Origin: a virus
Length of the DNA stretch: 33,473 bases
Virus record (IMG/VR): IMGVR_UViG_3300035698_013606
Span: 1 to 33,473 of that record
Strand: one strand, 5' to 3'
This document shows, in pieces, positions 13,518-31,441 of this stretch. Made by a program: the position numbers and the translations under genes. Under the pieces are notes generated by a model that worked only from the letters and a program-made list of their open reading frames with translations, had not been told where the DNA came from and did not search any database. The first letter of the stretch is position 1, and each line of letters begins with the position of its first letter.

Positions 13518-14471
13518 ATGTTCATTCAGTTTAATTGTTTAAGAACTGGATTGGGTAATGGCGGCGGTAGCAATACTATTTTACGGTGTCAACAGACATT
13601 AAAAGAATTGGGACATAGATGTGAGATTGTTGCTACTTTAGATAGATTTACTTGGTTCAAACATGATACTCCAAAACAGCATTTATCCGCTGATGCTGAT
13701 TGGATAATTGCAACTGGAGTTCATTCTTTTGATAGTACATTACATTCAAGAACTAATCATAAAGCATGGTATATTCGCGGCCATGAAACTTGGATAAAAG
13801 GATTTGATGAAAATGTATTAGTAAAAATGTATAAAAATTCTCATGTCCATATGGTATCAAATTCTACTTGGATGAAAAAATTTATTGAAAATCAAGGTGG
13901 AACTTGTAATGTAATATTTCAAGGAATAGATTGCAAAAGTTGGATTAATAATACCATAAAAAGAGATGCACAAGATAAAGTTACTATAGGTTGTCTATAT
14001 GGGGCTAAAGCAAGTAAACATTGGGATCATTTTTTAACATTAAAATCACTATTGGGTGATAAATATAATTATATGGCATATGGATTGAAGGCCCCAAAAG
14101 AATATAAAGGAATCAATTTTTTTACTCAACCCGGTCATAATCTTTTGAATAATATATATTTGTCATGTCATATATGGTTCGCTCCAACATCTCAAGAAGG
14201 ATTACATAATGTTCCTATGGAAGCAGCTTTATGCGGCTGTAGGATAGTATGTTCAGATGATGAAAGAAATGGAATGGGAGATTATGCAAGTGAACATACG
14301 GCCTATATATATTCAGATAGCAGAGTAGCTGATGCTGCAGATATTATAAAGGATGTGAACTTTCAAGATAACAAAGTAGAAAATATGAAAAATAGAATAA
14401 TCAATCATATAGGCGATAGAAAACATAATATGAAAAAGATGATAAACTTACTACATGAATCATCCCATTAA
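13518..14471 (+). CDS. Glycosyltransferase, GT-B fold (GT4-like)
   Basis: A 317-residue retaining-type transferase. The N-terminal unit has NGGGSNTILRCQQTLKELGH (14-33), the glycine loop and first helix usual in GT4 enzymes. A WYIRGHETW segment (84-92) lies in the acceptor domain. The C-terminal donor domain has the E-x7-E motif (E227/E235 in SQEGLHNVPMEAALCG), followed by RIVCSDDERNG. It should transfer a sugar from a nucleotide donor to an unknown acceptor in the cytoplasm. It is the first gene of the glycan island, begins two bases after the zinc-finger gene, and overlaps the next gene by 17 bases. Confidence 0.88.
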   Translation: MFIQFNCLRTGLGNGGGSNTILRCQQTLKELGHRCEIVATLDRFTWFKHDTPKQHLSADADWIIATGVHSFDSTLHSRTNHKAWYIRGHETWIKGFDENVLVKMYKNSHVHMVSNSTWMKKFIENQGGTCNVIFQGIDCKSWINNTIKRDAQDKVTIGCLYGAKASKHWDHFLTLKSLLGDKYNYMAYGLKAPKEYKGINFFTQPGHNLLNNIYLSCHIWFAPTSQEGLHNVPMEAALCGCRIVCSDDERNGMGDYASEHTAYIYSDSRVADAADIIKDVNFQDNKVENMKNRIINHIGDRKHNMKKMINLLHESSH

Positions 14472-15156
14472 TATAGATATTACAATGACGGCAACGTTGA
14501 GACCCAAAGTTCTCAGAAAGACATTGAGAAGTTTTGAAAAATATGCATTTGGAGATACATCTAAATATAAATGTAGATTGGTAATAAATATAGATCCAAT
14601 TGGAGAGTTATTGGTTTCGCAATATAAGATAAAGAACATTGCCAAAAATCATTTTCCTAATGTATTATGTAATATTTCAGATACACCGTCATTTCCAAAG
14701 GCGTTAATATGGTGCTGGAGTCACATAAAATCTAATTATGTATTTCATCTTGAAGATGATTGGAGATTAAATAGATTCGTTCCAATTGATGCATTAATAT
14801 ATGCTTTAGAATCAAATAAAAAATTGGCATCAATTAGACTTAGTAAATCACATATTACAAAAGATATTGATAGGAAATTGACATTTAATCCTTCTATGTT
14901 TAAAAAGACTTTTCTTGTTAAATTTGCAAGATTATTAGATTCAAACAAAAATCCTGAAAAACAAGTTAATTCTAATTTTCCTAAATTGTATAATTTTTGT
15001 AACCAATGGGAATATGAAGTATTCGGAAAAGTTGGCGATAGAAGATTAGTTACAGATATTGGTAGAAAATGGATGCAAAGACAGAAGTTTATAAAATTAA
15101 ATGAAAATAATGGACAAAATTCATCTTCCTTTACTACGTGGGAGAAAAAATGTTAA
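14455..15156 (+). CDS. Glycosyltransferase, GT-A fold (paralogue of 18121-18825)
   Basis: A 233-residue GT2-like protein. It starts with a strand plus TATLRPKVLRKTLRSFEK, the usual nucleotide-binding start, and has a metal-binding motif in FHLEDDW (LEDD at 99-102). Residues 10-50 and the C-terminus (TDIGRKWM, then TTWEKK) match the protein at 18121-18825, so the two are paralogues. No ribosome site is obvious, and the ATG overlaps the preceding gene by 17 bases, suggesting coupled translation. The paralogue's N-terminus aligns near residue 7, which supports this start over the ATG at 14485. Donor and acceptor are unknown. Confidence 0.78.
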   Translation: MNHPINIDITMTATLRPKVLRKTLRSFEKYAFGDTSKYKCRLVINIDPIGELLVSQYKIKNIAKNHFPNVLCNISDTPSFPKALIWCWSHIKSNYVFHLEDDWRLNRFVPIDALIYALESNKKLASIRLSKSHITKDIDRKLTFNPSMFKKTFLVKFARLLDSNKNPEKQVNSNFPKLYNFCNQWEYEVFGKVGDRRLVTDIGRKWMQRQKFIKLNENNGQNSSSFTTWEKKC

Positions 15157-16073
15157 TCATATTATATGGAAAATATAGCCCAAAAGAATATAGCTCAAAA
15201 CATCAAATGTTAATAGATGAGAAAAGCGTTTGTGGTTATAGAGATTATGCTGAACAATTTGGGCACATTATATATATGACTCCGCAAAAAGTTAGAAAAC
15301 CATGGGAACATTGCTTCTCTGAAAAAGGTATTTTGGATTTTATTAGTAAATATCCTGATGCTATAGTATGGTCAGTTAAACATGATCCTGCCAAAGATGA
15401 AATTCTCAAGAAGATTAAAAACAAAAAAGTGTATTATTCATGTTGTGCTAAAAATCCATATAATTCATATTGTAATATCAGTCTAGTAGATACAAAAGAA
15501 AGAATACAACAAAATGCAGTATTATATGTAAAAGGAAAAGACCCTAAATTTTGGGCATCATCTTATGACACAAGAAAAGAATTTGATTATTTATTAATAG
15601 GTAAAAGATGTGATAAAAATGAGGTTTACTTTTTACATGAATTAGATAAAGTTGGAAAAACTAGAAAAGTATTATGGATAGGTGGCGAACAACATAAGTC
15701 TAAAATAAATGTTAATAATGTAGAAGTAGAATATACTCCATTTCTAAATAAAGAATCTGTAAGAGATAATATATTAAGAGCAAGAATTGGCATTTTGTTT
15801 ACTGAGTTGGAGGTAGAGGGATTCCCTCAATCATATTTGGAAATGACTATGTGTGGATTGCCGGTAGTGTATAATCTAAAAGCACCGTACAATAAATACT
15901 ATTTTTTGGATCCAAGTTGTTCAGTTCGTACTGATAAAAAACATCTTATTGAAGCTGCGGAATTTTTAAAAAGAAAATATGATAAATCCATGATATATTA
16001 CACAAGATTGTCAGCTGCTAAAAATTATAGTCTTGATGTATCATATGAAAGGATTAAACAATGCATAAAGTAA
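15150..16073 (+). CDS. Glycosyltransferase, GT-B fold (GT4-like)
   Basis: A 307-residue protein. The C-terminal donor-binding half is recognisable: FDYLLIGKRCDKNE at the inter-domain start, VLWIGGEQ, then the E-x7-E motif (E223/E231 in ELEVEGFPQSYLEM) followed by CGLPVVYN. The N-terminal half (VCGYRDYAEQFGH) is divergent. The start is the ATG at 15150, with GGGAG five bases upstream inside the end of the preceding gene; a GTG at 15138 is too early for that site. It overlaps the next gene by 13 bases. It is probably one step in the same assembly line as its neighbours. Confidence 0.8.
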   Translation: MLIILYGKYSPKEYSSKHQMLIDEKSVCGYRDYAEQFGHIIYMTPQKVRKPWEHCFSEKGILDFISKYPDAIVWSVKHDPAKDEILKKIKNKKVYYSCCAKNPYNSYCNISLVDTKERIQQNAVLYVKGKDPKFWASSYDTRKEFDYLLIGKRCDKNEVYFLHELDKVGKTRKVLWIGGEQHKSKINVNNVEVEYTPFLNKESVRDNILRARIGILFTELEVEGFPQSYLEMTMCGLPVVYNLKAPYNKYYFLDPSCSVRTDKKHLIEAAEFLKRKYDKSMIYYTRLSAAKNYSLDVSYERIKQCIK

Positions 16074-16873
16074 TAACGATGTGTGATAATGGATATTTCC
16101 AATATGGAAAATTATTCATACAAACCCGTAAAAAAATAGATGCAGACTTTATTCTATATGGGCCTAATTTAGATTCAGGCCAAATACATATATTGACAAA
16201 AAATAATATAGAATATAAGAAAATGGATAAACGTGATTTCAATCTTAAAATGCAATATATGAAATTTAAGTTATTATTTGATAATATAACTGGTGCCACG
16301 GAAGATAATATAACATTTGTAGATTTTGATACATTATTCTTAAACGATTGGAATAATTATATATCTGGAAAGCAATTTGATTTAGGAATAACATATAACA
16401 ATTTATTCATAAAACAAAAGGTGTATAGGTCATTTGCTAATGGTGGTGTAATATTTGTTAAAGATACTTTTGGATCAGTGAATATGTGCGCTTATGCCAG
16501 ACATACAATGAATATTGGGAATAGTAAATTTTTGCCAGAATATGATTCTATTTATAAAACCCTTGAAGATCATAATAGACCTGAACATAAAAGATACTCA
16601 AGAACTTATTTAAGATGGTGGTGTGATCAGGTTTTTCTATCTGCCATAATATTACAATATTTGAATACGCACTCTAAATTGATTATGGATGATTGTGCGT
16701 ATAAATTTCACAAACATAATATACAGTTTTTTGATTGTAGCAAATTTAATAATCTTAATGTTACTTCTGAAAATATCACAATTAGAATAATGAAACATAA
16801 TCCGTATATTTGTCATCTAAAAAATATAGGAAGGTCTGGTAGTTATGAAAAAATCATTAAAAGATTATTATAG
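16061..16873 (+). CDS. Glycosyltransferase, GT-A fold (GT8/nucleotide-diphosphosugar transferase-like)
   Basis: A 270-residue protein. It has a DxD metal motif in FVDFDTLFL (D88, D90), FANGGVIFVK (125-134), the usual 'NsGv' strand of GT8-like enzymes, and a WWCDQVFLS segment (186-194) equivalent to their 'DQ' motif, with CHLKN near the C-terminus. This points to a metal-dependent transferase using a UDP- or GDP-type donor. The ATG at 16061 has AAAGG eight bases upstream. It overlaps both neighbours, the downstream methyltransferase by 29 bases. Confidence 0.78.
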   Translation: MHKVITMCDNGYFQYGKLFIQTRKKIDADFILYGPNLDSGQIHILTKNNIEYKKMDKRDFNLKMQYMKFKLLFDNITGATEDNITFVDFDTLFLNDWNNYISGKQFDLGITYNNLFIKQKVYRSFANGGVIFVKDTFGSVNMCAYARHTMNIGNSKFLPEYDSIYKTLEDHNRPEHKRYSRTYLRWWCDQVFLSAIILQYLNTHSKLIMDDCAYKFHKHNIQFFDCSKFNNLNVTSENITIRIMKHNPYICHLKNIGRSGSYEKIIKRLL

Positions 16874-17516
16874 TAAATGGAACAATTATGTCATTAATAA
16901 AATACGTTTTATCAATTCAACTAAAAGTAATATGCACAGAGATTATTTTGTGCAATATGTTAAAAAACACAAAGATATAAAATCAATTGTTGAAGTTGGA
17001 GCAGGAGAATTAATTGAAGCACAAAAGATATTAAAGAATAATCCTGATATATTTTATATGGTTGCAGATATTTCAGATACATTTTTAAAGTATGCCAATG
17101 AATTGAAAATTAGTGCTATACAATGCGATATGATTAAATTAGCTAAATACATACGATCTAATTTTTTTGATTTGTTATATGTATCAAGCGTATTAGAACA
17201 TTCTCCGAATATAACACAAACTATTGACGCTATGAGCAAAATTAGTAAACAATATTATATAAGTATGTTTAAATGGAGAGTCAAAGGTGGTTCTTTAACT
17301 TCTCATTTTAATGATAAAAGAAATTATTATACATCTATATTTAGTATCCAAAATATAATGAATTTATTGCAGTTGCATAGTAAAGTTAAATATGCTTTTA
17401 TGTTAAAAGGCGATGGCAATACCATACCATATGGGGATTATATCCAAATGTATAAAGATAACAATGAAACACAAAGAGATGGCAGTAGAATGATATTCAT
17501 AGGTAAATGGGATTGA
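16845..17516 (+). CDS. SAM-dependent methyltransferase, class I
   Basis: A 223-residue Rossmann-fold methyltransferase. Motif I is IVEVGAGELIEA (48-59), an acidic residue follows the second strand (VADIS, D75), and the post-strand-4 segment is FDLLYVSSVLEHS (108-120), the usual type-11/type-23 pattern. The C-terminal part has an aromatic, Asp/Asn-rich lid. Given its neighbours, a sugar O-, N- or C-methyl transfer is the simplest guess; no substrate residues are diagnostic. The start overlaps the upstream transferase by 29 bases. The downstream gene begins after an AAAGGAG site that overlaps this gene's stop. Confidence 0.78.
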   Translation: MKKSLKDYYSKWNNYVINKIRFINSTKSNMHRDYFVQYVKKHKDIKSIVEVGAGELIEAQKILKNNPDIFYMVADISDTFLKYANELKISAIQCDMIKLAKYIRSNFFDLLYVSSVLEHSPNITQTIDAMSKISKQYYISMFKWRVKGGSLTSHFNDKRNYYTSIFSIQNIMNLLQLHSKVKYAFMLKGDGNTIPYGDYIQMYKDNNETQRDGSRMIFIGKWD

Positions 17517-17527
17517 AAGGAGATGTA

Positions 17528-18124
17528 ATGACTGAGTTATGTAAACTTGCAAATAAGTATCATACTGACAAGTATTGCAAACATCATTATACCCAAGTAT
17601 ATGATACATATTTTAATTCATTAAGATATGCCAAAATGAAGGTACTAGAGATTGGGGTAGCAGATTGCGCATCAATAAATATGTGGTTAGATTACTTCCC
17701 TAATTCCTATATTTTTGGGATGGATTTAATCATACCTGATGATTTATCTAAAAATTCAAAATTTGTTTTTATAAGAGGTAATCAATATAATCCTCGTGAT
17801 TTGGATAATATAATTAAAAGTGGCAAAAAATTTGACATTATAATTGATGATGGTTCTCATGTTTCAGAACATCAGCAATACAGTTTAAGTTATCTTTGGA
17901 AATACTTGAAACCTGGTGGTTTTTATGTTATAGAAGATTTGAATTGCAAAAGAACTACGCATATAGAAACTACTGAAATAGTATTTAAGGAATACATTAA
18001 AACAAAATCATTTAGAAGTAGAATAATTGCATCTGATGAATCAAAAAAAATATCTGATGAAATCTATATGTGTAAATTCCATTGTAACAATAAAATCATC
18101 TTTATTAGAAAGAGGGTGAAATGA
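17528..18124 (+). CDS. SAM-dependent methyltransferase (MycE/CmcI-like)
   Basis: A 198-residue methyltransferase. It begins LANKYHTDKY, then HHYTQVYDTYF, a signature of the sugar O-methyltransferases related to macrolide enzymes such as MycE. Motif I is VLEIGVADCASINMW (39-53), the ribose-binding acid is D66 (GMDL), and a metal/substrate-binding IIDDGSH motif is at 105-111 before LKPGGFYVIEDL. The family usually needs a divalent metal held by these acids. The ATG at 17528 has AAAGGAG six bases upstream. The stop overlaps the next start as ATGA. It probably methylates a sugar hydroxyl. Confidence 0.86.
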   Translation: MTELCKLANKYHTDKYCKHHYTQVYDTYFNSLRYAKMKVLEIGVADCASINMWLDYFPNSYIFGMDLIIPDDLSKNSKFVFIRGNQYNPRDLDNIIKSGKKFDIIIDDGSHVSEHQQYSLSYLWKYLKPGGFYVIEDLNCKRTTHIETTEIVFKEYIKTKSFRSRIIASDESKKISDEIYMCKFHCNNKIIFIRKRVK

Positions 18125-18825
18125 TACCATTTGATTTCACTACTACTGCTACAAACAGAATTGATATTGTAGAACACTGTTATGCTTCATTCCATAAAAA
18201 TTTGGAATGGGTTGATTGGAACAATTCTACACTATTAATCAATATCGATCCAGTTCCGCTTGGTATTAATGCAAGCAATTTTATGGATATGTGCTCAAAA
18301 TATTTTGGCCAAGTAATTATTAACATACCTGATAAACCTAATTATACACAAGCATATAAGTGGGTTTATAGGAAAGCGAATTCAAAATTGATATTTAATT
18401 TAGAAGATGATTTTATACTTACAAGAAAAGTTGATGTCAGGGCATTAGTAGAATATTTCAATCAAAATAAAGAATTGTATTCAGTATCATTAAGAGTATA
18501 TCCTTGGCATTACCAAAGCATTCCTACTTCTCCGCAGATTCTACATAAAAGATTTTATAAAATAGTTGGAGAAGGTTTGGATCCGAAAATCAATCCAGAG
18601 GTACAATTGAGAGGATCTAAATGGGGATTAAAGATGCCGACATTTAGAGAAGGATATGGACCTAAAATTTCAGAGAAAGGTAAACTTGTAGTCTATCCAG
18701 AACAAGGGGGAGATCATAATTGCATTGTTAAAGATATTGGCAGAGAATGGTCTAAATCACGCGGTCTTTTGAGAACCAAAGAAAAGAAAGATTTTGTTAC
18801 ATGGGAAAGGAAAGATAATGGCTGA
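18121..18825 (+). CDS. Glycosyltransferase, GT-A fold (paralogue of 14455-15156)
   Basis: A 234-residue GT2-like protein with FNLEDDFIL (LEDD at 94-97) as the metal site. It shares with 14455-15156 the opening TTTATNRID, the LLINIDPVP strand and a C-terminal KDIGREW then FVTWERK. Divergence is enough that the two probably have different acceptors or donors. It starts as an ATGA overlap with the methyltransferase stop, with GAGGG upstream. The C-terminus overlaps the next gene, whose ribosome site is inside it. Confidence 0.78.
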   Translation: MIPFDFTTTATNRIDIVEHCYASFHKNLEWVDWNNSTLLINIDPVPLGINASNFMDMCSKYFGQVIINIPDKPNYTQAYKWVYRKANSKLIFNLEDDFILTRKVDVRALVEYFNQNKELYSVSLRVYPWHYQSIPTSPQILHKRFYKIVGEGLDPKINPEVQLRGSKWGLKMPTFREGYGPKISEKGKLVVYPEQGGDHNCIVKDIGREWSKSRGLLRTKEKKDFVTWERKDNG

Positions 18826-19672
18826 CATTGACATTATAACATATGTTCATAAGACAGAAGACTATGCTAATTTGATGAGAAGATCTTGTGAGATATTTGC
18901 TAGTAAAGAAAATACATTTCATTGGAAATGCATAAAATCAAATATTGATCAAAAGCCTATTAAAGACTGGGAAACTATTAATGTATCTAATAGCGAGGAA
19001 TACGGCCTAAGAGGATCTACATGCCATGCAATAGCCTTAAACAAAGCCTTAACATACGCTAAGAGCGATTATATAATAGTAGCGGATGCAGATATTGCTA
19101 TTTTATATCCTGAATGGGATAAACAAGTCATACACATACTTCATGATATAGGAATACAATTTTATGGATTTGAACCACCTTGTGAATCAAGGAGAGGAAA
19201 TCAAAGTTTTCCTTGTGTATTTTTTATGGCATTTAAAAGAAAAATACTTGATGATCTTCAATTAGACTTTAAACCTGATGTAGATGAAAATGAGAAATGC
19301 AAAAGGTATCAGATTGATACCCCTGAGAAATCACATATATTTAATAAACATATAGGCGATAGTGTAAAATGCGATACTGGATGGAAAATACCTATAATTG
19401 CCAAGAAATATAGTTCTGCCGTTATTCCATATATGGGCCAAAGGATTACAAGTAATATTAGTTATACTAGAATATTGCCATATAAAAATAAAGAACAAGA
19501 AAGAATATGTATGCAAAATCCAACTCATATGGCAGAATGGCATTTAAAGAATAAATTGTTTGGGACTCATAAACAAGCTGCAAGAGTTCATCCTTTAAAT
19601 AAAGGTACTGGTAAAATTTGGAAAGATAGAATTGATGTATATACTCAAAAAGAATTTGGAGTGATTTTATGA
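18818..19672 (+). CDS. Glycosyltransferase-like protein, GT-A fold
   Basis: A 284-residue protein starting with a beta strand and a DxD motif in YIIVADADIAIL (D90, D92), followed by a Cys/Gly-rich middle (about 118-135) and a C-terminal histidine-containing tail (MAEWHLKN). The motif and order of strands suit GT2 or a related nucleotide-sugar transferase. The ATG at 18818 has AAGGA six bases upstream; an in-frame upstream start at 18794 lies before this site. The stop overlaps the following ATG (ATGA). Confidence 0.68.
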   Translation: MADIDIITYVHKTEDYANLMRRSCEIFASKENTFHWKCIKSNIDQKPIKDWETINVSNSEEYGLRGSTCHAIALNKALTYAKSDYIIVADADIAILYPEWDKQVIHILHDIGIQFYGFEPPCESRRGNQSFPCVFFMAFKRKILDDLQLDFKPDVDENEKCKRYQIDTPEKSHIFNKHIGDSVKCDTGWKIPIIAKKYSSAVIPYMGQRITSNISYTRILPYKNKEQERICMQNPTHMAEWHLKNKLFGTHKQAARVHPLNKGTGKIWKDRIDVYTQKEFGVIL

Positions 19673-20274
19673 GAACTTTTAAAATCAAATCAAAGTTATA
19701 TGATAAATCGTTTGATGTTCCTGACGAAGTAGAATTTGATAAAGATGCTCACGCATTAGTAATATACATGATAGCAAAAGGATTATCTGATGCTAAAATG
19801 TTAAAAAATTATTTAGAGATAGGTATATCAAGAGGGGCTACATTTAATCTTGTTGCGCCATTAGTTTCCAAAACTGCTTATGCAGTTGATAAAGATCCTC
19901 ATTGTTATAGATTCATAGAGGCAAATGAAAATTTATCATGGCATAGATTAACTAGCACTAATTTCTTTAAATTAAATCCAGGTGTAAATTTTGATTTAAT
20001 ATTTATTGATGCAGAACACACTCATAGTAAAAGTCTAAGAGATTTTATAGTATCTGCAGATAGACTTAATGACAATGGCCTAATATTGATGCATGATACA
20101 TATCCTCAATCAGAAAAATATATTAGCTTAAAACATTCTGGAAATGTATTCAAAGCTATTATATATTTGAAAAAGAATTTTTATCATAAATATGAAATTG
20201 TTACACTTCCATTCTATAGTGGCATAACTATTATACGCAAAGCTCATAAACATATAATGTGGAAAAATACATAA
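19669..20274 (+). CDS. SAM-dependent methyltransferase (Methyltransf_24 type)
   Basis: A 201-residue protein. Motif I is YLEIGISRGATFN (48-60), the acidic residue after strand two is in AVDKD (D74), and the family-typical FDLIFIDAEHTHSKSLRDF (108-126) is followed by LNDNGLILMHDTYP (133-146). IDAEHTH and HDTYP are hallmarks of the type-24 methyltransferases found in polysaccharide and antibiotic clusters. Likely a sugar or glycan methyl transfer. It ends a run of overlapping genes; 52 bases with a leader motif follow, so it may be the last gene of the first island transcript. Confidence 0.86.
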   Translation: MRTFKIKSKLYDKSFDVPDEVEFDKDAHALVIYMIAKGLSDAKMLKNYLEIGISRGATFNLVAPLVSKTAYAVDKDPHCYRFIEANENLSWHRLTSTNFFKLNPGVNFDLIFIDAEHTHSKSLRDFIVSADRLNDNGLILMHDTYPQSEKYISLKHSGNVFKAIIYLKKNFYHKYEIVTLPFYSGITIIRKAHKHIMWKNT

Positions 20275-20326: not shown

Positions 20327-20956
20327 ATGAAAAAAATATTTTTAGATTTAGGGGCATGGAAAGGAACTGCAACCCAATTTTTTATTCGCGCCCATCCACA
20401 AGCAAAGGAATTTGAATATTATTTGTTTGAACCTCATCCTAATCTGATTGAACATTTTTTATTCAAACTGCCACAACTTAATGATTATAAAATATGGATA
20501 CTCCCTAACGCAGTTTGGTCAAGGAATACTGAATTAGACTTTTATGTAGGAAAATCAAAATACGCTAGAGGGAATACTTTATTGGATTCAAAAACCAGTG
20601 GTAATTTGAATAAGGAACATCCAATTAAAATAAAAGCGTTGGATATTAGTCAATTTATAAAAAATAATTTCAAACCTGATGATTACATAATTTGTAAATC
20701 AAATATAGAAGGTGCAGAATATGAAATATTGCCCAACATGATAGCTAATGGTTCATTATCCTATATTAACAAATTATATATTGCATGGCACTGGAATAAG
20801 ATCGATTATAAAGAAAGTCTACATAATTCTATTGTAGAGCATGTTAAGAAATATACTACTGTATTTGATTGGATTCTTGATGAAGATGAAAATTCAAATT
20901 TAATTTCTAAAAAGAATCAGGAATGGTTCCTTAAAACATTAGAAGGAGATATTTAA
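20327..20956 (+). CDS. FkbM-family methyltransferase
   Basis: A 209-residue methyltransferase. Motif I is FLDLGAWKGTAT (5-16), the acidic ribose-binding position is in YLFEPHPN (E35), then NAVWSRNTELDFYVG (61-75) and SNIEGAEYEILPNM (125-138). The last is the FkbM 'KiDiEGaE...' motif with an Asn/Ile in place of the usual Asp, so a metal or substrate contact may differ. FkbM enzymes methylate sugar or polyketide hydroxyls and are common in O-antigen clusters. The ATG at 20327 follows GAAAGGA. The stop overlaps the next start as TAATG. Confidence 0.85.
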   Translation: MKKIFLDLGAWKGTATQFFIRAHPQAKEFEYYLFEPHPNLIEHFLFKLPQLNDYKIWILPNAVWSRNTELDFYVGKSKYARGNTLLDSKTSGNLNKEHPIKIKALDISQFIKNNFKPDDYIICKSNIEGAEYEILPNMIANGSLSYINKLYIAWHWNKIDYKESLHNSIVEHVKKYTTVFDWILDEDENSNLISKKNQEWFLKTLEGDI

Positions 20957-21630: not shown

Positions 21631-21632
21631 CT

Positions 21633-22118
21633 ATGAAATTTTCAGATCTCATTAAAAAAGTAGAGTTAATAACGCCATCTTCTAAGATGGTTAATGTTGA
21701 GGATATTTGTGCACAATATAATCCTGATCGTTTTAAATATTGGAAAAGATGTCAACTTAGTAATGATAAAGACAAAAATATATTAGATATGAATTATTCG
21801 CCTCATGTAACTTTGTTAAAAAATAAAATCAATTTTAGCAAAATAGAAAAAACTTTATATTATCAATTACAAAAATTGTATGGCAGGAAATATGAATGGA
21901 TACTTGATAAAATAAATCAATTTATAATGTTACATAATTCAATAGTATTCCATTATGATGAAAAGTTTCCAATTCAAGTATTAACTCAACCTATTGTTTC
22001 CAATAAATATACTGGAGATAGATTTGAAATATATGAAGGTCATCATAGATTGGCTTGTGTACTTGCCAATGGATATAAACAAATATTGGCTCAAGTTTAT
22101 GATTGGAGATTAGGATGA
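21633..22118 (+). CDS. ParB/sulfiredoxin-fold protein (SerK-like?)
   Basis: A 161-residue protein. Its C-terminal part has FEIYEGHHRLACVLANGYK (131-149), the G-x-H/R-R-x-x-A motif of the ParB/sulfiredoxin fold. There is no helix-turn-helix domain, so it is not a partition protein. Free-standing members of this fold include the serine kinases SerK and SbnI (established for those proteins). Here, in a sugar cluster and overlapping a phosphoglycerate-dehydrogenase-like gene with ATGA, a small-molecule kinase role is an attractive guess but not proven. The start has a weak AGAAAG site. Confidence 0.6.
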   Translation: MKFSDLIKKVELITPSSKMVNVEDICAQYNPDRFKYWKRCQLSNDKDKNILDMNYSPHVTLLKNKINFSKIEKTLYYQLQKLYGRKYEWILDKINQFIMLHNSIVFHYDEKFPIQVLTQPIVSNKYTGDRFEIYEGHHRLACVLANGYKQILAQVYDWRLG

Positions 22119-23770: not shown

Positions 23771-24432
23771 TTATATTTTTACATATCCCTAAAACTTCTG
23801 GTACAACTATCATGAGAAGAATTGTACCCAATAATGTAATTTGTGGTCATTATCCTTATGGTATACACAAATATGTTAAGATGTTCGGAATTACATCTGA
23901 AAAGTTTCAATATTTTACGTTTTTAAGAAATCCAATAAGAAGATGGAATTCACATTACAATTATATATTATCTGCCAATAATGTTAAATATAAAAATTCT
24001 CCTTTATCAAAAACAATTAAATCTCACAATTCCAATATGCTAATGGATAAAGGATGGCTGTGCAATAATATGACCAAGCAATTAAGTGGGTTGGGTGATT
24101 TTAATGATAGATTTTATACAAATGAGACATTATTATCATTAAATATATATAATCCATTTAGTTGTTTTATACATGATAATATTGATATGGCAAAAGCATT
24201 TAAAATTGCAAAGGAAAATATTAAAAAATTCAGCTTTGTAGGATTTGTTGAAAATACACCAAATGATTATTATAGATTATGTGAACAATTTGGATGGAGT
24301 GCACCCAAAATAATACCACATTTAAGAGAAACAAAATATTCTTGCATAATAAACCCTAAGTTAATTACTGAGATGAATAGATATGATTTTGAGTTATATA
24401 ATTGGGCAAAGGATTTATTTTGGAAAAAATAA
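23767..24432 (+). CDS. PAPS-dependent sulfotransferase
   Basis: A 221-residue protein with the two PAPS-binding signatures of the carbohydrate sulfotransferase superfamily: 5'-phosphosulfate loop FLHIPKTSGTT (4-14, K9) and 3'-phosphate site FLRNPIRRWNSHY (52-64, R54 and nearby serine-equivalent positions). The C-terminal half has the family's FVGFVENT strand. This is the Sulfotransfer_2 type that sulfates sugars. It would add sulfate to the glycan. No PAPS-synthesis genes are present, so the host must supply PAPS. It starts with an ATGA overlap and its end overlaps the aldo/keto reductase start. Confidence 0.85.
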   Translation: MIIFLHIPKTSGTTIMRRIVPNNVICGHYPYGIHKYVKMFGITSEKFQYFTFLRNPIRRWNSHYNYILSANNVKYKNSPLSKTIKSHNSNMLMDKGWLCNNMTKQLSGLGDFNDRFYTNETLLSLNIYNPFSCFIHDNIDMAKAFKIAKENIKKFSFVGFVENTPNDYYRLCEQFGWSAPKIIPHLRETKYSCIINPKLITEMNRYDFELYNWAKDLFWKK

Positions 24433-25064
24433 TTGGACTCGGCACTGCATCATTCGGTATTAAAAGATATGGGCCTATATCTCATAAAGATGCAGAAGAG
24501 GTATTAGAGACCTATATGTATAACGATGGACATTTAATTGATACGGCAAGAACATATGGTGATAGCGAAAGTATAATTGGGAATTTTCTTCACAATAAAA
24601 GAGAACCATTAGTTCTGTGTACTAAAACCGAAGGTGTCAAAGTAATTAAAGATTGCGAAACATCTTTAAAGAAATTACAAACCGACTATATTGATATATA
24701 TTATTTGCATTCAGTAGACTTTATAACAAAACGCATGATTGATGATATGCATAAATTAAAGAATAATGGCAAAATAATTAATATAGGCTTATCAGTTAAG
24801 AATTCCATAATACCATTTCTACCATATGTTAATGGATTTGATGTAATACAAATTCCATTCAATATGAACTATGTTGCAAATGAAATTCTATTTGGTAGAT
24901 TTAATGGTAAAATAATTGCCAGAAGTATATTTGATCGCGGAGTATTAAAAAATAAAATAAAAGAAGCTATGAAATTTGTTTGTTCATTTCCGAATATAAA
25001 TTCAATATTAATTGGCCCAAAAAATAAGGAACAAGTGTGCGAATTGATGAATCTCAATTGCTAG
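24420..25064 (+). CDS. Aldo/keto reductase, short form
   Basis: A 214-residue NAD(P)H-dependent oxidoreductase. It starts EKIIGLGTASFG, the usual first strand of the family. The catalytic tetrad is complete: D41 and Y46 in LIDTARTYGDSE, K69 in LCTKTE, H97 in YLHSVD. The barrel is completed to GLSVKN, VIQIPFN and SILIGPKN, but at 214 residues it is well below the usual 280-320 and lacks much of the loops. The TTG at 24420 has AAAGGA six bases upstream; a TTG at 24402 precedes that site. In sugar-activation clusters such enzymes act beside CMP-sugar synthetases to change a side group. Confidence 0.85.
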   Translation: MEKIIGLGTASFGIKRYGPISHKDAEEVLETYMYNDGHLIDTARTYGDSESIIGNFLHNKREPLVLCTKTEGVKVIKDCETSLKKLQTDYIDIYYLHSVDFITKRMIDDMHKLKNNGKIINIGLSVKNSIIPFLPYVNGFDVIQIPFNMNYVANEILFGRFNGKIIARSIFDRGVLKNKIKEAMKFVCSFPNINSILIGPKNKEQVCELMNLNC

Positions 25065-25804
25065 ATGTAAAAAAAACTGATACTCTTATTATATATGGCT
25101 GTGGATATAGTTTATGGGACATCACAGAACAAGAATGGCAAAAATTATCACAATATGATTCTATGGGATTTAATTGGTTTATATGGCAAGATTGGATATC
25201 GCCTACGTATGAATTAGCAGGTGGGATAAGATGGGATAAATTTTCAGAAAAACTTGGCAAAACAAAAGAGGAAGCACATAATAGTTATAGGGATAGGGTA
25301 AAGGATAATCCGCATCTTTATGCAAATACTGTATTCCTTGTAACTAATGAACAATCTAAATTACTTAAAGGTGGCCCATCAAAACAATTCATAATAGAAA
25401 GAATTAATTTTTGGGAACTAGAAGATCTCAAATTTACCTATTTTGTATATGAAACCAGCCAGACTATTTGTGCATTGCAATTTGCTATAAAAATGGGTTA
25501 TAAGAAAGTTGTATATGTAGGAGTTGATTTATATGATTATAGGTATTTCTTTTTAGAAAAAAATCAATTGCGCAGAGTTGCTACTGGATGTATGCGCAGA
25601 AAAAGACCACCTAAATATAAAAAACCTGACATTAATGCAATTCATATTGGTAAACCTAAAGTATGCGGAATGTTCATAAAATATCCAGAAATATTTGATT
25701 TTGTAGAAGTATATTCATATAATCCAAAATCATTATTATTAGAAATTCCACAGATAAAAGTATGGAGGTTTGATAATGAATATAGTATCAATACTAATAG
25801 GTAG
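25037..25804 (+). CDS. GT42/DUF115-like putative glycosyltransferase
   Basis: A 255-residue protein. TLIIYGCGYSLWDITEQEW (13-31) resembles the 'vvGnGPSL' start of GT42 sialyltransferases and DUF115 proteins; SMGFNWFIW corresponds to the following 'vNqf' strand, and ALQFAIKMGYKKVVYVGVD (about 147-165) to the 'A..lGyk.I.lvGvD' strand. It is likely related in fold to the protein at 23114-23770, though direct identity is small. The GTG at 25037 has AAGGA six bases upstream; it overlaps the upstream gene by 28 bases and the CMP-sugar synthetase by 29, so all three are probably made together. Role inferred: transfer of a CMP-activated sugar. Confidence 0.55.
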   Translation: MRIDESQLLDVKKTDTLIIYGCGYSLWDITEQEWQKLSQYDSMGFNWFIWQDWISPTYELAGGIRWDKFSEKLGKTKEEAHNSYRDRVKDNPHLYANTVFLVTNEQSKLLKGGPSKQFIIERINFWELEDLKFTYFVYETSQTICALQFAIKMGYKKVVYVGVDLYDYRYFFLEKNQLRRVATGCMRRKRPPKYKKPDINAIHIGKPKVCGMFIKYPEIFDFVEVYSYNPKSLLLEIPQIKVWRFDNEYSINTNR

Positions 25805-26489
25805 AAAGAATAGTAAAGGTTTTCCAGGCAAGAATACACATAATGTTTGTGGACATCCATTATGCTATTATCCTATGATTGCGGCAAAACAATCACATTT
25901 GATTACTAATCATTTTGTTTCAACTGACGATCCTGAAATTATGAAAATAGCAAAAGATATGAATTTTACTGTAATTGATAGACCCCCAATATTGGCAACA
26001 GATAAAGCATTAGGGGAAGATGTATTTGTACATACCTATTATAAAATTAAGGCAAGATATGGCAACATAGATATGTGTGTATTATTGTTTGCAAATGCTC
26101 CTATGGTAACCGGAAGAATAATTGATACCGGAATAGAGGCGTTGTATAATGATTGCCGTTATGATTCTTGCTGCACTGTATCAAAATATAATATGTTTAA
26201 TCCATCTAGGATGAAGCAAATAGAGAATGGATATTTAAAAACTTCAAATGAGTCCGATATTACAAATGCTGATTGTGATAGAGATTCTTTTGGAGATCAT
26301 TATATGTATGATTGTTGTTGTGCAGTCGTAAAACCAAATTGTTTAGAAAATATAAATTATGGGATACCCCCGCAAAGATGGTTAGGACAAGATATTTATC
26401 CCATAATTAACAATATTGGTTTGGATATTGATTATGAATGGCAATTAGGTCAAGCTGAATATTGGGTTAAAAATTATTCTAAGGAGTAA
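25776..26489 (+). CDS. CMP-sugar synthetase (acylneuraminate cytidylyltransferase family)
   Basis: A 237-residue nucleotidyltransferase. The CTP-binding loop reads GRKNSKGFPGKN (R10 to N20), matching R-x-x-S-K-G-x-P-G-K-N of NeuA/CMP-Kdo synthetases; a strand VLLFANAPMV replaces the usual 'LQPTSP'. FVSTDDPEIMKIA (50-62) and the C-terminal DIDYEWQLGQAE (metal-binding DxD region) also fit. It should activate a sugar acid such as a nonulosonate as its CMP derivative. No nonulosonate synthase (NeuB) or epimerase is in the window, so the sugar would come from the host or from elsewhere in the phage. GGAGG seven bases before the ATG at 25776. Confidence 0.85.
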   Translation: MNIVSILIGRKNSKGFPGKNTHNVCGHPLCYYPMIAAKQSHLITNHFVSTDDPEIMKIAKDMNFTVIDRPPILATDKALGEDVFVHTYYKIKARYGNIDMCVLLFANAPMVTGRIIDTGIEALYNDCRYDSCCTVSKYNMFNPSRMKQIENGYLKTSNESDITNADCDRDSFGDHYMYDCCCAVVKPNCLENINYGIPPQRWLGQDIYPIINNIGLDIDYEWQLGQAEYWVKNYSKE

Positions 26490-27805
26490 TGATGAAGATA
26501 GCTTTGGTAAATCCGCCTTATCGTATCACAAAAGAACACGTAACAAATTATGCTAAGAATTCATTGCGCAGGGCTCAGCCAGTATTAAGTCTTGCCATAC
26601 TAGCAACTGAATTAAAACAACTTGGGCATGAAATATTATATCTTGATAGCGTTATAGAGGGGATTGACCAAACTCATCACTTTGATGAATATACAGATTA
26701 TTATGGATTATCTATAGAACAAATTAAAGAAAGAATTAATAGCTTTGGAGCAGATCAAGTATGGATGACGTGTTTGTGTACTGCTCTTTTCCCATTAGCT
26801 GAAAAAATTGCTCAATCATTAGAGCAACCTGTTATAATAGGTGGAAATCACGCATCTTTAAATGTCAAAGAAATATCTCAGAATGATACATTTTATTCAA
26901 TAGTTTGTGGAGAGGCAGATAACCAAATTGAAAACATTTTCAGAAAAATGGAACATAAAAAAATAATACATTTGCCAAGATTAGAAAATATGGATACTGC
27001 TATTCAAGTAGATTGGAGTTTATTACCGTTAATGGATTATTGGGAAAAGGCATTGCCTCAAAATCCATTTGCCAAAAGTAGAAAAACTATTTTATATGAG
27101 ACTTCAAGAGGTTGCCCTGAAAGATGTATATTTTGTTCAACTACAAAATTCTTTGGAAATAAATTTCGGCCTAAAAGTTCACAATTTGTAGTGGATGAGA
27201 TAACTGCAGCGGTAAGAAAATATAATATAGAAGAAGTGCAATTCACAGATGATAGTATGGGCGTTAATGCTCAAAGATTCATGGAAATATGTGATGGCCT
27301 TAAACCTTTGAAAATACATCTTTGTAATCCATCTGGAATAAGATTGTACACTAAAGATGAAAATCAAATAAAAGAAATATTCCAAAAGATGAAGGATGCA
27401 GGATTTTATCAATTTACATTTGCAGTAGAAAGTGGCAATGAAAGAGTATTAAATAAATTGATAAGAAAAAGACTCGATTTAAAATTTACAGAAAAATTAA
27501 TATCAATGGCAAAAGAATATTTTAAAGTGCATGTATTTTTAATAATGGGTTTGCCAGGTGAAACTATGAATGAAATGCAAGATACTATAGATTTGGCAAG
27601 AAGAATAAAAGCAGATAGTTATTCAATATCATTAGCTCAACCATTCCCTAAAACTGATTTGGAACAATTGTGCAAAGATAGTAATTATATAATTGATGGA
27701 ATACAAGAATATGATATGTTGCTTGGCCGACAAACTATTAAAAGAGATGATAATCTTGATATAGAAAAATTAGTTCAAGATTTATTGATTGAACTAAACA
27801 ATTGA
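26489..27805 (+). CDS. Radical SAM enzyme with B12-binding-like domain
   Basis: A 438-residue protein. Residues about 3-150 form the N-terminal Rossmann domain typical of cobalamin-binding radical SAM enzymes (IALVNPPYR, LGHEILYLDS, IIGGNHASL), though the strict DxHxxG ligand motif is not seen. The radical SAM core has ETSRGCPERCIFC (C209, C213, C216 binding the 4Fe-4S cluster), the FTDDSMGVN strand, and FAVESGNERVL. Members methylate unactivated carbons or rearrange substrates. In a sugar cluster, C-methylation or radical chemistry on a sugar is a fair guess. The ATG at 26489 overlaps the upstream stop (TAATG); AAGGAG lies just before. Confidence 0.88.
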   Translation: MMKIALVNPPYRITKEHVTNYAKNSLRRAQPVLSLAILATELKQLGHEILYLDSVIEGIDQTHHFDEYTDYYGLSIEQIKERINSFGADQVWMTCLCTALFPLAEKIAQSLEQPVIIGGNHASLNVKEISQNDTFYSIVCGEADNQIENIFRKMEHKKIIHLPRLENMDTAIQVDWSLLPLMDYWEKALPQNPFAKSRKTILYETSRGCPERCIFCSTTKFFGNKFRPKSSQFVVDEITAAVRKYNIEEVQFTDDSMGVNAQRFMEICDGLKPLKIHLCNPSGIRLYTKDENQIKEIFQKMKDAGFYQFTFAVESGNERVLNKLIRKRLDLKFTEKLISMAKEYFKVHVFLIMGLPGETMNEMQDTIDLARRIKADSYSISLAQPFPKTDLEQLCKDSNYIIDGIQEYDMLLGRQTIKRDDNLDIEKLVQDLLIELNN

Positions 27806-27815
27806 AAGAAGATTT

Positions 27816-28823
27816 ATGAACATACTTTTTCTTAGAGGTCAAGAACCACAAGATAGAGATCCAAAGGAAACATATTACAATTCCTTAGAAGATTGTGACG
27901 ATATGTGGACTCATCTTGCCAATGCTTTAACTGAACAAACTGGCATAGGAGAAATACTATATTGGAATGGAGACAGAAAAGTTCATTACACAAATAGATT
28001 TACAGAAAAGAGAATTAAGACATTTGAAGGATATAAACCATCTTTTACTCCAGATGTAATATTTGCGCGCGGTGGTTTCTCGGAATATGATTACATTATA
28101 AAATCATTCCCTAAAACTATCAAGATATATTATGGCGCTCACGCCAAAAGATTCTTTCCACAAGATGACAAAGTCTATTATGATATTATATTTGTAGATT
28201 CACAGGAACAGAAATCTATTGTATCAGAAAAATTCCCAAATTCTTATGTAACTTTGTTCATTAAATCTACTGTAGAAAACATTATGTTTCCTCATAAAGT
28301 TAAAAAGGAATATGATGTATGTTTTCCAGCTAATGGTTCTCAAAAAAAGTTCAAAGAACACGAATGGGTATTTTCTACCGCCCCTAAAGATCTAAAGATA
28401 CTTAATTTAGGGAATACAAGTGGTTTATCCGTCCCTTCTCATATTACTTCCTATAAAGTTAATAGGAAGGCTATAGCGAAGGAATACTCTAAATGTAGGG
28501 TAGGAATAGTGTGTTGTAATAAAGATCTTGATTCATGTCCTAGAGTGTTACCGGAAATGCTTGCCTGTAATATTCCAGTAGTATGTACTAATACTTTTCA
28601 TTTTTGGTCAGATTTATATATGAATAAAGACACAGGAATATTAGTAAACAAAGAGACATTATGGGATGCTGTTAGATATACCTTGAAAAATGTAGAGAGA
28701 TTTAAACCAAGAACATTTTATGAAAAAAATCTATCAATTAAAAAATCAGTCGAACATATAAAGGAACACTTATATTATTTTGCTAATAAAACTCAAAAAG
28801 AAAGGTTATCAAATGGATGTTAA
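27816..28823 (+). CDS. Glycosyltransferase, GT-B fold (GT4-like)
   Basis: A 335-residue protein. The N-terminal unit is MNILFLRG..., then a PDVIFARGGFSEYDY segment; the donor half shows YDVCFPANGSQKKFKE and the C-terminal DSCPRVLPEMLACNIPVVCTN with a GILV strand, corresponding to the E-x7-E/donor-binding region of GT4 enzymes, here with R/E spacing that is not a strict E-x7-E. Activity and donor are not determined. The start has GAAAGAAG four to five bases before the ATG. The 3' end overlaps the following radical SAM gene by 11 bases. Confidence 0.72.
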   Translation: MNILFLRGQEPQDRDPKETYYNSLEDCDDMWTHLANALTEQTGIGEILYWNGDRKVHYTNRFTEKRIKTFEGYKPSFTPDVIFARGGFSEYDYIIKSFPKTIKIYYGAHAKRFFPQDDKVYYDIIFVDSQEQKSIVSEKFPNSYVTLFIKSTVENIMFPHKVKKEYDVCFPANGSQKKFKEHEWVFSTAPKDLKILNLGNTSGLSVPSHITSYKVNRKAIAKEYSKCRVGIVCCNKDLDSCPRVLPEMLACNIPVVCTNTFHFWSDLYMNKDTGILVNKETLWDAVRYTLKNVERFKPRTFYEKNLSIKKSVEHIKEHLYYFANKTQKERLSNGC

Positions 28824-29850
28824 ACAATTTGCTTCTGATAAGATTTTAAGTGTAGAACATCTGCCAAAAGTATATGAATGGTTAGAAGGTAAAAATCCTT
28901 TTCCTGTCACTATGGAATTAGACATCACTAATGTATGCAATCATAAATGTCCTGCATGCTCAGGTGGATTTGACAAAGATAATTCAACATGGCAGATGAA
29001 TGATGGTATTAAAATAATAAGGGAAATGGCTGCATTAGGTTGTAAAGCTATTATATTTAGTGGTGGTGGAGAACCATTTTGTAATCCATTCTTGGAACAT
29101 TTTATTTTAGAGGCTTATGACAATGACTTAAATATAGGCTTAATAACAAATGGAAGTAAACTAGGAACTATTGATGCAAGCACATTATTTAAATGCACAT
29201 GGATAAGAATTAGTTTAGATGCCGGAACAACTGCTTTACATCAAGCAACTCATGGAACGAATGACTTTGATATAATTGTAGAAAACATAATGCAACTGAT
29301 GAATGAAAAAAATCCATATTTTCAAACTGATATTGGAATTGGATACTTAGTAGGAAATGGTACTGATAATTTCAATGATATGATGGATTTTGTAGAATTG
29401 GCTATTAAAATGAAAGTAAGTTATGCTCAATTTAGACCATTTCATACGCAAGCAAAAAAGAATTTTAGTAATTTTAAAGAAATAGATTTTGCTTCATTTG
29501 TGAAATTATCTAACAACAGAACAGAAATTCTCTATTCTGCACATAAGTTTGAAAATATGATGAATGGTTTAGCCAATAGAAATTACTCAAAATGTTATGG
29601 CCAACAATTTGCCGGAGTAATTACTGCCAATGGAGATATGACTGTATGCTGTCACACTAGAGGTTTGAATCAATTTACATTAGGTAATGTGAAATCAGAA
29701 TCTATCAAAAAAATATGGAATTCAAGTAAACGTAAAAAAATAGTTGAAACCATTGATTTAAAAAAATGCCCATTACTTTGTAGGTGTAATGCTATTAACG
29801 AATGTCTATGGAATTCAAAGAAAAGAAAAAAACATGTTAATTTTTTATGA
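28813..29850 (+). CDS. Radical SAM/SPASM enzyme
   Basis: A 345-residue protein. The cluster motif is CNHKCPAC (C42, C46, C49) after MELDITNV, followed by IIFSGGGEPFCNP (the SAM-binding GGEP) and SLDAGTT. The C-terminal region has a SPASM-type cysteine set: CYGQQFAG, MTVCCHTRG, GNVKSESIKKIW, then CPLLCRCNAINEC. It should carry auxiliary iron-sulfur clusters and do radical chemistry such as oxidation, dehydration or crosslinking; SPASM enzymes act on sugars (BtrN-like), peptides or proteins. The ATG at 28813 has AAAGG seven bases upstream. The stop overlaps the next start (ATGA). Confidence 0.88.
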   Translation: MDVKQFASDKILSVEHLPKVYEWLEGKNPFPVTMELDITNVCNHKCPACSGGFDKDNSTWQMNDGIKIIREMAALGCKAIIFSGGGEPFCNPFLEHFILEAYDNDLNIGLITNGSKLGTIDASTLFKCTWIRISLDAGTTALHQATHGTNDFDIIVENIMQLMNEKNPYFQTDIGIGYLVGNGTDNFNDMMDFVELAIKMKVSYAQFRPFHTQAKKNFSNFKEIDFASFVKLSNNRTEILYSAHKFENMMNGLANRNYSKCYGQQFAGVITANGDMTVCCHTRGLNQFTLGNVKSESIKKIWNSSKRKKIVETIDLKKCPLLCRCNAINECLWNSKKRKKHVNFL

Positions 29851-30617
29851 AAGCTAAACAATTTAGAGATATAGACATTCATAGAAGAAAATACTCAATT
29901 GTAGATTCTGATTGGGAAATATTGCAATCGCATACCAATAAAAAATCACATAAATTTAAAAAAGGTATATCATTAATTACCAGATGTAGCAATAGAGAGC
30001 AGCAATTAGAGACTTCATTAAAAAGTTGGGTTAAATATAATTTTGATGAAATAATAATTGTAGATTGGAATTCAAAAGGTAATGTGCAAGCAATAATAGA
30101 TAAATATCAAAATAACAAAATATATAGAATACAAGTTCCTAATCAAAAAAAATTCTCAACAGTATTGTCAAGAAATGTTGGTTTAAAATTTGCAAGATAT
30201 GAAACTGTATTGATGATTGATTGCGATTTAATAATGAAAAATAATTTATTATTTGTCAGAATATTAAATTTAAAAGATAATGAAATAATAACTTGCAGAA
30301 ACACAATGTATCACTTAGGCGGTACTTGTATAATGAAATTGGAATACTTTTATCAGATAAATGGATACAATGAATTGTTATTAGGTAGAAAATATGATGA
30401 CTCTGAATTTTATAAAATAGCAAAAAAAAATGGAATCAAATTGAAAAAACAATTAGACTATAAATACTTCACACATCAACCTCACAACAAAACAAAAAAG
30501 AAGGAAGTCATTAAAAATAAAAAGGTATTTTATAGCAACAAACGTCATAAAGTAATGCAAACATTTGTAACATATATCACTTATCCTACTGGTATAACCA
30601 AAAAGGTATTATTATGA
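29847..30617 (+). CDS. Glycosyltransferase, GT2 family (galactosyltransferase-like)
   Basis: A 256-residue protein. It has LITRCSNREQQLETSLKSW (43-61), DEIIIVDWNSKGN (67-79), LSRNVGLKFARYE (107-119) and the DxD motif in LMIDCDLIM (D125, D127). A later INGYNE and KYDDSEFY are typical of the acceptor-side motif of the GT2/GT27-like group. It is likely a nucleotide-sugar transferase. No Shine-Dalgarno is visible, but the ATGA overlap with the upstream stop suggests coupled translation. The next gene also starts within its stop codon. Confidence 0.82.
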   Translation: MKAKQFRDIDIHRRKYSIVDSDWEILQSHTNKKSHKFKKGISLITRCSNREQQLETSLKSWVKYNFDEIIIVDWNSKGNVQAIIDKYQNNKIYRIQVPNQKKFSTVLSRNVGLKFARYETVLMIDCDLIMKNNLLFVRILNLKDNEIITCRNTMYHLGGTCIMKLEYFYQINGYNELLLGRKYDDSEFYKIAKKNGIKLKKQLDYKYFTHQPHNKTKKKEVIKNKKVFYSNKRHKVMQTFVTYITYPTGITKKVLL

Positions 30618-31441
30618 AAAAATTATTATTGTGTGGCCCATGGCAAGGAGAATTTGGTTGGGAGATATGTATGTGGCAACCACATCTTCGTTACATTTCC
30701 CAAACAGAAAAATATAATAAAATCATAATATCTACTCAGCCAACCCATGAAATACTTTATGAAGATTTTGCGGATGGTTTCATCTATAACAAAAGAGGAA
30801 GAAACTCAGATGGATGGAAAAATCGTGATGTAGATTTTTGTTACTTCCCTCAATCTGTATTAACAGAAGTCAAACGCAAACATAAAGGATATACTATACA
30901 GGTATATTCTCCCAATGATGATAGTACATCAGAAAATTCTCCAAAGACATATATACGTTATGGCAGAAAAGAATCAAAACCGAAATATGATATTCTATTT
31001 CATGCTAGATGGACTAACAAGTGTAACTCCGGAGATAGAAATTGGCCATTAAAGAAATGGGAAGAAGTGAGCAATCATTTTAAGAGGATGGGTTTAAGAA
31101 TGGCCTCAGTTGGCCTTAAAAGCAGTTCCAAATATATTGCTCATACTGATTACTTAATGAATATGGATTTAAGAGATATGGTCGATATAATGGTAAACAG
31201 CCGGCTTATCATTGGGCCATCTTCCGGCCCATTACATTTGGCCAGTTTCTGTGGTTGCCCTCAATTGGTTTGGACAAATAATAAGTTCTGGAAATCAATT
31301 AACGGCACCAACCGCAAAAGATGGAAGCATTCATGGAATCCTTTTCAAACAAAAGTCAGTGTAATAGATAATTGTAACTGGCAACCCAGGGCAAAAGATG
31401 TTATATCTAATATTGAAAAAATGCTAAATATTAGATATTAA
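30614..31441 (+). CDS. Glycosyltransferase, GT9/heptosyltransferase-like
   Basis: A 275-residue GT-B protein. It opens with LLLCGPWQGEFGWEICMWQP, a 'GEFGWE' start seen in a group of GT9-like phage and environmental proteins. The donor half has LFHARWTN, NWPLKKWEEVSNHF, a VDIMVNSRLIIGPSSGPLHLAS segment (189-211) and a CPQLVW strand, the arrangement of ADP-heptose:LPS heptosyltransferases. The last gene of the island: AAGG seven bases before the ATG, then 71 non-coding bases follow. It would add a heptose or other sugar late in the pathway. Confidence 0.8.
   Translation: MKKLLLCGPWQGEFGWEICMWQPHLRYISQTEKYNKIIISTQPTHEILYEDFADGFIYNKRGRNSDGWKNRDVDFCYFPQSVLTEVKRKHKGYTIQVYSPNDDSTSENSPKTYIRYGRKESKPKYDILFHARWTNKCNSGDRNWPLKKWEEVSNHFKRMGLRMASVGLKSSSKYIAHTDYLMNMDLRDMVDIMVNSRLIIGPSSGPLHLASFCGCPQLVWTNNKFWKSINGTNRKRWKHSWNPFQTKVSVIDNCNWQPRAKDVISNIEKMLNIRY

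Follow-up and report, generated by a model that had tools for sequence, protein, structure and literature searches.

We observed that a 33,473-bp virus record from IMG/VR (IMGVR_UViG_3300035698_013606; this whole stretch of DNA is called the window below) carries, to the right of a head module on the minus strand of its left arm, an island of 23 open reading frames (ORFs) for building a glycan, at 13518-31441. From the gene content and location, we infer that the acceptor of the glycan is a virion protein. Our favoured reading, to which we give an even chance, is that the island is a phage-encoded cytoplasmic pathway, in which a methylated, sulfated and ulosonate-bearing oligosaccharide would be put on a virion protein, most likely of the head, without a lipid carrier or flippase. 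More tentatively, a horizontally shared module (CMP-ulosonate synthesis, Maf-like transferase, ParB-like protein and tailoring enzymes) may let diverse tailed phages coat their heads in the cytoplasm of the host, carrier-free, with a methylated, sulfated Kdo/sialic-like glycan, as a counterpart of the capsid glycans that giant viruses make for themselves.

A virion protein is favoured as the acceptor because other groups of phages have the island or module linked to their head genes, and because a 786-residue glycosyltransferase (GT) adjoins the major capsid protein (MCP) throughout the lineage of the window, in both island-bearing and island-less relatives. The module consists of a KdsB/NeuA-type synthetase, a D-2-hydroxyacid dehydrogenase (2-HADH), an HpcH/HpaI aldolase, a Maf/MptE-like putative transferase and a ParB-like protein. 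It recurs in at least six phage groups, and in some of them it abuts head-tail genes. The other phages were reached by scans with the MptE-like and 2-HADH genes. One of them (G017, 38.6 kb) has a terminase large subunit (TerL), portal and head protein without BLASTP similarity to those of the window; its 24-kb island lies between the portal (phrog_145) and the major head protein (phrog_212), and 13 of the 15 matched genes follow the window order (permutation p about 5e-5). A shorter version in G018 (the fusion protein described below, with MptE-like, KdsB, 2-HADH, SPASM, B12-radical SAM and HpcH genes) is placed between a putative, unconfirmed MCP and head-completion (Phage_HCP)/HK97-gp10-like genes. 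KdsB, 2-HADH and HpcH stand two genes ahead of connector-like genes in L071 and L072 (gp10-like by Pfam in L072), and L073 was detected solely through the 2-HADH and HpcH searches. Whole or partial modules also occur inside larger glycan arrays on contigs of 298, 351 and 548 kb, the last of which has, in addition, a HAD phosphatase as well as a relative of the window sulfotransferase. GT genes linked to head or tail genes, as would be expected of a virion-glycosylation system, are found with the 786-residue GT at the MCP and in G017 and G018. The recurrence of the gene set in several unrelated phages, in some of them amid the head genes, suggests that these phages may sugar-coat their own particles. 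With the positions that it takes up relative to the head genes of G017 and G018, the question of the acceptor is open to a direct test.

The G018 fusion protein (G018; L077:13808-16864) has 1018 residues and combines two GTs, one of them a GT4, with a methyltransferase and a domain of the ParB-like kind.

With its MCP, portal, TerL and 5' nuclease context, as predicted from sequence, the window is firmly assigned to phage DNA. The genes to the left of the island are as follows.

1210..3570, minus strand: bifunctional GT4 plus GT2-like GT, 786 residues (PDB profile WlaC/TarM GT4, weak SunS)
3679..4701, minus strand: MCP (PHROG major head protein, 5.5e-11)
7154..8785, minus strand: portal protein (PHROG portal, 8e-41)
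9335..11257, minus strand: TerL (tblastn against annotated phage TerL, ~27%; 12 IMG/VR loci)
12211..13146, plus strand: 5'-3' exonuclease (5' nuclease) at the island border (PF02739, 1.7e-18)
13192..13515, plus strand: small Zn-ribbon-like protein between the 5' nuclease and the island (conserved at 35-39%, island-less G010 included)

The 786-residue GT, which a preliminary description of this DNA had overlooked, gave an AF2 model with a pLDDT of 71.8 and Foldseek GT-B matches down to 1e-14. An MCP-linked homolog (L046:1112-4276) is longer, at 1054 residues, about 270 of them extra. The 5' nuclease is kept in every relative whose contig extends to that position.

The island ORFs are all on the plus strand with gaps of -44 to +52 bp, and as their lengths total 18,156 bp against a span of 17,924 bp, most junctions overlap. 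All the ORFs of the near-gapless, same-strand, 23-gene island first described were present, and Pfam supported its four methyltransferases, sulfotransferase, CMP-sugar synthetase, two oxidoreductases (2-HADH and an aldo/keto reductase, AKR) and two radical-SAM enzymes. The proposed count of 12 GTs is plausible, with Pfam matches for several (some scoring just under the gathering cut-off); however, 14455/18121 and 16061 had no Pfam match, their support coming from DxD-type motifs and paralogy, and 25037 weakly resembles 23114. As for the ParB/SerK fold proposed for 21633, the EGHHR motif is present but a credible PDB sequence match is absent. The PDB sequence searches with 14455/18121, 21633 and 25037 gave no credible match; the best matches of 21633 (E 0.26-0.6) were toxin glucosyltransferase chains, and these were treated as chance. 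The radical-SAM and sulfotransferase motifs of the window island are intact. The island genes, referred to by their start positions, are listed here, all on the plus strand.

13518..14471, plus: GT4, core, first island gene (PF00534, 1e-4; 48-51% in G001/G005, 31% in G017)
14455..15156, plus: putative GT-A (LEDDW), paralog of 18121 (no Pfam or PDB match; conserved)
15138..16073, plus: GT4, core (PF13692, 2.4e-5; 47-50% in G001/G005)
16061..16873, plus: putative GT-A, DxD, core (no Pfam; conserved at 45-48%; weakly similar to the G018 fusion in its Nucleotid_trans part)
16845..17516, plus: SAM methyltransferase, core (PF08242, 7e-7; homologs in L060, L065, G018)
17507..18124, plus: SAM methyltransferase (PF13578, 2.5e-4)
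18121..18825, plus: putative GT-A, fused to methyltransferase 17507 in relatives
18794..19672, plus: GT2-like, core (PF00535, 1e-4)
19669..20274, plus: Methyltransf_24, core (2.5e-12)
20327..20956, plus: FkbM methyltransferase (PF05050, 2.3e-9)
20956..21630, plus: TOD1/MUCI70-type GT, core (PF04765, 2.7e-9)
21633..22118, plus: ParB-like protein, module gene (EGHHR motif)
22103..23113, plus: 2-HADH, module gene (PF02826, 3.8e-35; 33-57% homologs in other phages)
23114..23770, plus: Maf/MptE-like protein, putative CMP-ulosonate transferase, module gene (PF01973, 1.4e-4, under cut-off)
23767..24432, plus: Sulfotransfer_2, PKTSG and RNPxxR motifs (8.5e-5, above cut-off; homolog in L065)
24402..25064, plus: short AKR (PF00248, 6.7e-27)
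25037..25804, plus: putative second Maf/GT42-like protein (no Pfam; three jumbo-phage contigs have homologs, 28-31%, within their glycan islands)
25770..26489, plus: CMP-sugar synthetase, nearest PseF/NeuA (PF02348, 1e-11; TIGR03584, 7e-21, under cut-off; PDB NeuA-type, 9e-12)
26489..27805, plus: B12-binding radical SAM enzyme, probable methyltransferase (PF04055, PF02310; CPERCIFC motif; best NCBIfam match rSAM P-methyltransferase, under cut-off)
27816..28823, plus: GT4, core (PF00534, 1.7e-5; 49-50%)
28780..29850, plus: radical SAM/SPASM enzyme (PF04055, PF13186)
29847..30617, plus: GT2 (PF00535, 3.6e-11)
30614..31441, plus: GT9-like, core, last island gene (PF01075, 3.5e-5; homologs in G005, G001 by tblastn, and G017)

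We further examined the same lineage for the island. Another phage of this kind, in the record G001, also has TerL, the nuclease and an island homologous to that of the window; two further metagenomes gave G003 and L004, which match G001 at 99.996-100% identity. In the incomplete 105-kb G005 and in the contig L009, the island, or the beginning of it, occupies the corresponding site. The order of the window is kept by 13 of the 14 matched genes in G001, and likewise in G005 (permutation p about 5e-5 each), and the phages that share the core have TerL identities of about 61-69%. Misassembly was ruled out by a second contig (L002) that is 100% identical to the window across 7577-12361, by the repeated TerL-nuclease-island arrangement in G001, G003 and L004, and by the collinear relatives. 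Neither of the two findings that the preliminary description had named as fatal to it (a chimera at 12-13.5 kb, or adjacent wzx/wzy and an initiating transferase) was seen in these fragmentary genomes. The island genes are under purifying selection: between G001 and G005, island genes with a measurable dS had a ratio of nonsynonymous to synonymous substitution rates (dN/dS) of 0.09-0.30, as against 0.05-0.12 for the head genes and nuclease, values that are rough since dS is near or past saturation.

The conserved core is a set of GT, methyltransferase, ParB-like, 2-HADH and MptE-like genes. Methyltransferase 17507 and GT 18121 form one fused protein of 463-477 residues in G001 and G005, which suggests that both act on one sugar. 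Sulfotransferase 23767, the AKR, 25037, the PseF-like synthetase, both radical-SAM enzymes and GT2 29847 are found in the window only, in comparison to G001 and G005, which instead carry a KdsB-type synthetase, an HpcH/HpaI aldolase and other sulfotransferases. Island-less relatives (G010, L040, L045) have a methyltransferase and a sulfotransferase-like gene at the island site; the latter, assigned only from its motif and homology, is related to one in G001/G005. When a tree was built from TerL, the island bearers and non-bearers fell on opposite sides of one branch; most forks of this tree are open and L010 is badly placed on a very long branch, and it was used only for the grouping of the bearers. 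A small locus for sugar tailoring may therefore be either the origin of the large array or its remnant.

Three further genes were seen in these relatives. The homolog of GT 18794 is in two pieces at G005:86276-87089 (a broken gene or a sequencing error), the far end of the islands of G001 and G005 holds a C92 permuted-papain amidase gene (L016:5083-5634) that the window does not have, and a patatin-like phospholipase occupies the site of the relatives' glycan island in G010 (G010:21348-22295).

The CMP-sugar synthetase of the window is nearest to PseF and NeuA, and a nonulosonate-like sugar is therefore implied. A KdsB-type CMP-Kdo synthetase is found in the relatives only (in G001, NF003952 at 200.9 bits against a cut-off of 193), and an HpcH/HpaI aldolase takes the place of the KdsA synthase in G001, G005, G017, G018, L060 and L065; the window has neither KdsA nor the aldolase. 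To call the island a nearly complete assembly line was thus an overstatement: the relatives' aldolase is missing and no nucleotide-sugar biosynthesis is evident beyond the CMP-sugar synthetase, so that most donors must be host-derived. We infer a chain in which the aldolase could condense pyruvate with an aldehyde, a phosphatase (present in L065) could free the ulosonate, the synthetase would form the CMP-sugar of this Kdo/nonulosonate-like acid, and the MptE-like protein would transfer the ulosonate from it. A precedent for such a transfer is given by the Maf enzymes, which put Neu5Ac and Kdo from CMP donors directly on protein Ser/Thr and whose central domain, PF01973, resembles Cst-II (PMC11339370). 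Against PF01973, 23114 scored 22.2 bits and its L060 homolog 22.8 bits (cut-off 34.6), and MptE-like proteins recur alongside CMP-sugar synthetases in other phages. The glycan chain itself might be started by the virion-linked 786-residue GT beside the MCP or by an island GT, and would be extended from host nucleotide sugars by the GT4/GT2/TOD1/GT9-type enzymes, tailored by the methyltransferases and radical-SAM enzymes, and sulfated by the sulfotransferase with sulfate from 3'-phosphoadenosine 5'-phosphosulfate (PAPS). The likely benefit would be shielding, adhesion or a changed particle chemistry.

Other ulosonate genes were seen in large phages. The 351-kb phage contig (L064:7983-15165, L070) has NeuB, a UDP-GlcNAc 2-epimerase (NeuC-type) and a cytidylyltransferase but no HpcH, a near-complete nonulosonate pathway that stands beside MptE-like, ParB-like and B12-radical-SAM genes. 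A 462-kb uncultured phage (LR756500; L086:10957-12711) has a KdsA-like gene, recognized by eye, near a KdsB-like one, another CMP-Kdo-type route.

We also looked for genes of a lipid-carrier route. The initiating polyprenyl-phosphate sugar transferase family (Bac_transf, PF02397) was matched in none of nine phage records, which are fragments, and PF00953 (WecA-type) was not searched separately; the Wzx-type flippase family (Polysacc_synt, PF01943) was likewise matched in none of the nine, and polymerase families were not searched singly. The controls matched in both searches. No clear transmembrane segment was present among the window-island proteins (maximum 19-residue Kyte-Doolittle value 1.56, in 23114). 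The absence of an initiating transferase, flippase and obvious membrane segment, as first described, agrees with these results, and the cytoplasmic acceptor proposed with it is reasonable in view of the missing PF02397 and PF01943. The chain is therefore probably built on a soluble acceptor. By these searches, the island does not have the composition of a Wzx/Wzy-type O-antigen or capsule locus, with its initiating transferase, flippase and membrane polymerase.

These results bear on host-surface remodelling, in which the enzymes would extend or modify, within the cytoplasm, the lipid-linked O-antigen or capsule precursors of the host and so keep other phages from superinfecting. GT-rich regions of pelagimyophages have been read in this way (PMC7029224), the Prochlorococcus phage P-SSM2 has a 12-kb array with GTs, epimerases and a methyltransferase, and sulfated sugars, like those of the Kdo/sialic type, are typical of the glycans on bacterial surfaces. 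We nevertheless consider it unlikely, since the island lacks the initiating transferase, the flippase (of the tested families) and a membrane protein, the homologous island or module lies within the head gene clusters of G017, G018, L071 and L072, and genes expressed there, late and with the structural genes, would presumably do little to exclude other phages.

A chain on modified DNA bases, evading restriction, appears improbable. Yersinia phage YerA41 shows that phage DNA can bear large oligosaccharide-like groups in a phage with several GT genes (PMC9023294). The window phage is AT-rich and its relatives encode ThyX, but PF00303 (thymidylate-synthase/dCMP-hydroxymethylase) was absent in G000, G001, G005, G010, G017 and G018, which are incomplete genomes, and the module sits in head operons; a Tet_JBP search had no match, but its control was silent too. 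We are also not aware that sulfation or an ulosonate cap has a function on DNA.

That one phage acquired a bacterial polysaccharide locus as mere cargo, neutral or in decay, or that the island is an assembly chimera, is hardly credible, for although one G005 island gene is split in two and peripheral genes differ between islands, the core is conserved across phages of such diverged TerL and also where the backbone is unrelated, the measurable dN/dS values lie well below 1, and independent assemblies reproduce the junction.

Several points weigh against glycosylation of a virion protein. The acceptor is a prediction from gene content and location; in the lineage of the window the island is beside the head genes, not within them, and on the opposite strand; and in the jumbo phages no head genes were seen close to the module. 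For the Maf link, the Pfam match is below threshold, and the AF2 model of the MptE-like protein (pLDDT 60.5), which had no Foldseek match at 1e-3, was not good enough for a test. Island-bearing phages could supply glycans to the host surface instead, and as the genomes are incomplete, wzx/wzy or DNA-modification genes may lie in the missing parts. If the sugar-coating of phage particles is true, glycan coats would be a pathway-level trait common to unrelated phage lineages, beyond a few stray GTs, with a bearing on particle adhesion, persistence and escape from recognition. It would also bring sulfated and ulosonate sugars into phage biochemistry and give carrier-free enzyme sets for the synthesis of such glycans.

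Just beyond the island, two short lipoprotein-like ORFs (31960-32163 and 32520-33005; LSNCC and MNSCS) give a weak hint of the lipobox type of the host, and a small protein (33022-33345) with SLHYVGYALDF resembles, by motif only, an M15-type peptidase (endolysin-like). Two scans of bacterial genome contigs, with the 2-HADH and B12-radical SAM genes, gave no match for a bacterial source. Among 50,697 phage records there was no match for GT4 13518 or the 786-residue GT; GT 18121 matched one uncultured huge phage only, and the 2-HADH matches were generic (about 26-31%).

Phage glycan arrays, phage virion glycosylation and DNA-borne oligosaccharide are already known. The P-SSM2 array (193,428-205,500; 15 same-strand genes) is like the island in that a phage genome holds GTs and sugar enzymes, along with a methyltransferase, densely on one strand, but unlike it in having nucleotide-sugar epimerases; counterparts of KdsB, HpcH, MptE-like, sulfotransferase and radical-SAM genes were not found in it, and its cross-hits to the islands were few and generic. 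The island thus has the dense GTs and sugar enzymes, in a bona fide phage, of a phage glycan/lipopolysaccharide array, without a sequence relation to the known ones. To our knowledge, mycobacteriophage virion glycosylation involves a few GTs only, and is not known to use a pathway of 20 genes in which CMP-sugar, sulfation and radical-SAM enzymes take part. As summarized in PMC12619734, Freeman et al. (2023) found mycobacteriophage glycans on capsid and tail-tube subunits, as a shield. In pelagimyophages, the GT-rich host-recognition region, read as O-chain modification (PMC7029224), is variable and holds tail fibre genes, while the island here has a conserved collinear core. YerA41, with its inferred ~1-kDa thymidine oligosaccharide (PMC9023294), resembles the island phage in its several GT genes and in the large sugar-like modification predicted here, but the acceptor is DNA, and a base-hydroxylating gene was not found here. 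The putative CMP-ulosonate donor and Maf-like transferase of the module would have their parallel in Maf-dependent nonulosonate glycosylation of flagellin, where a PF01973-type transferase acts directly on protein (PMC11339370), although Maf is a three-domain enzyme and the phage proteins have about 210-255 residues and a weak PF01973 match. What is different here is a conserved, horizontally shared CMP-ulosonate core, with sulfation and radical-SAM tailoring and placement in head operons.

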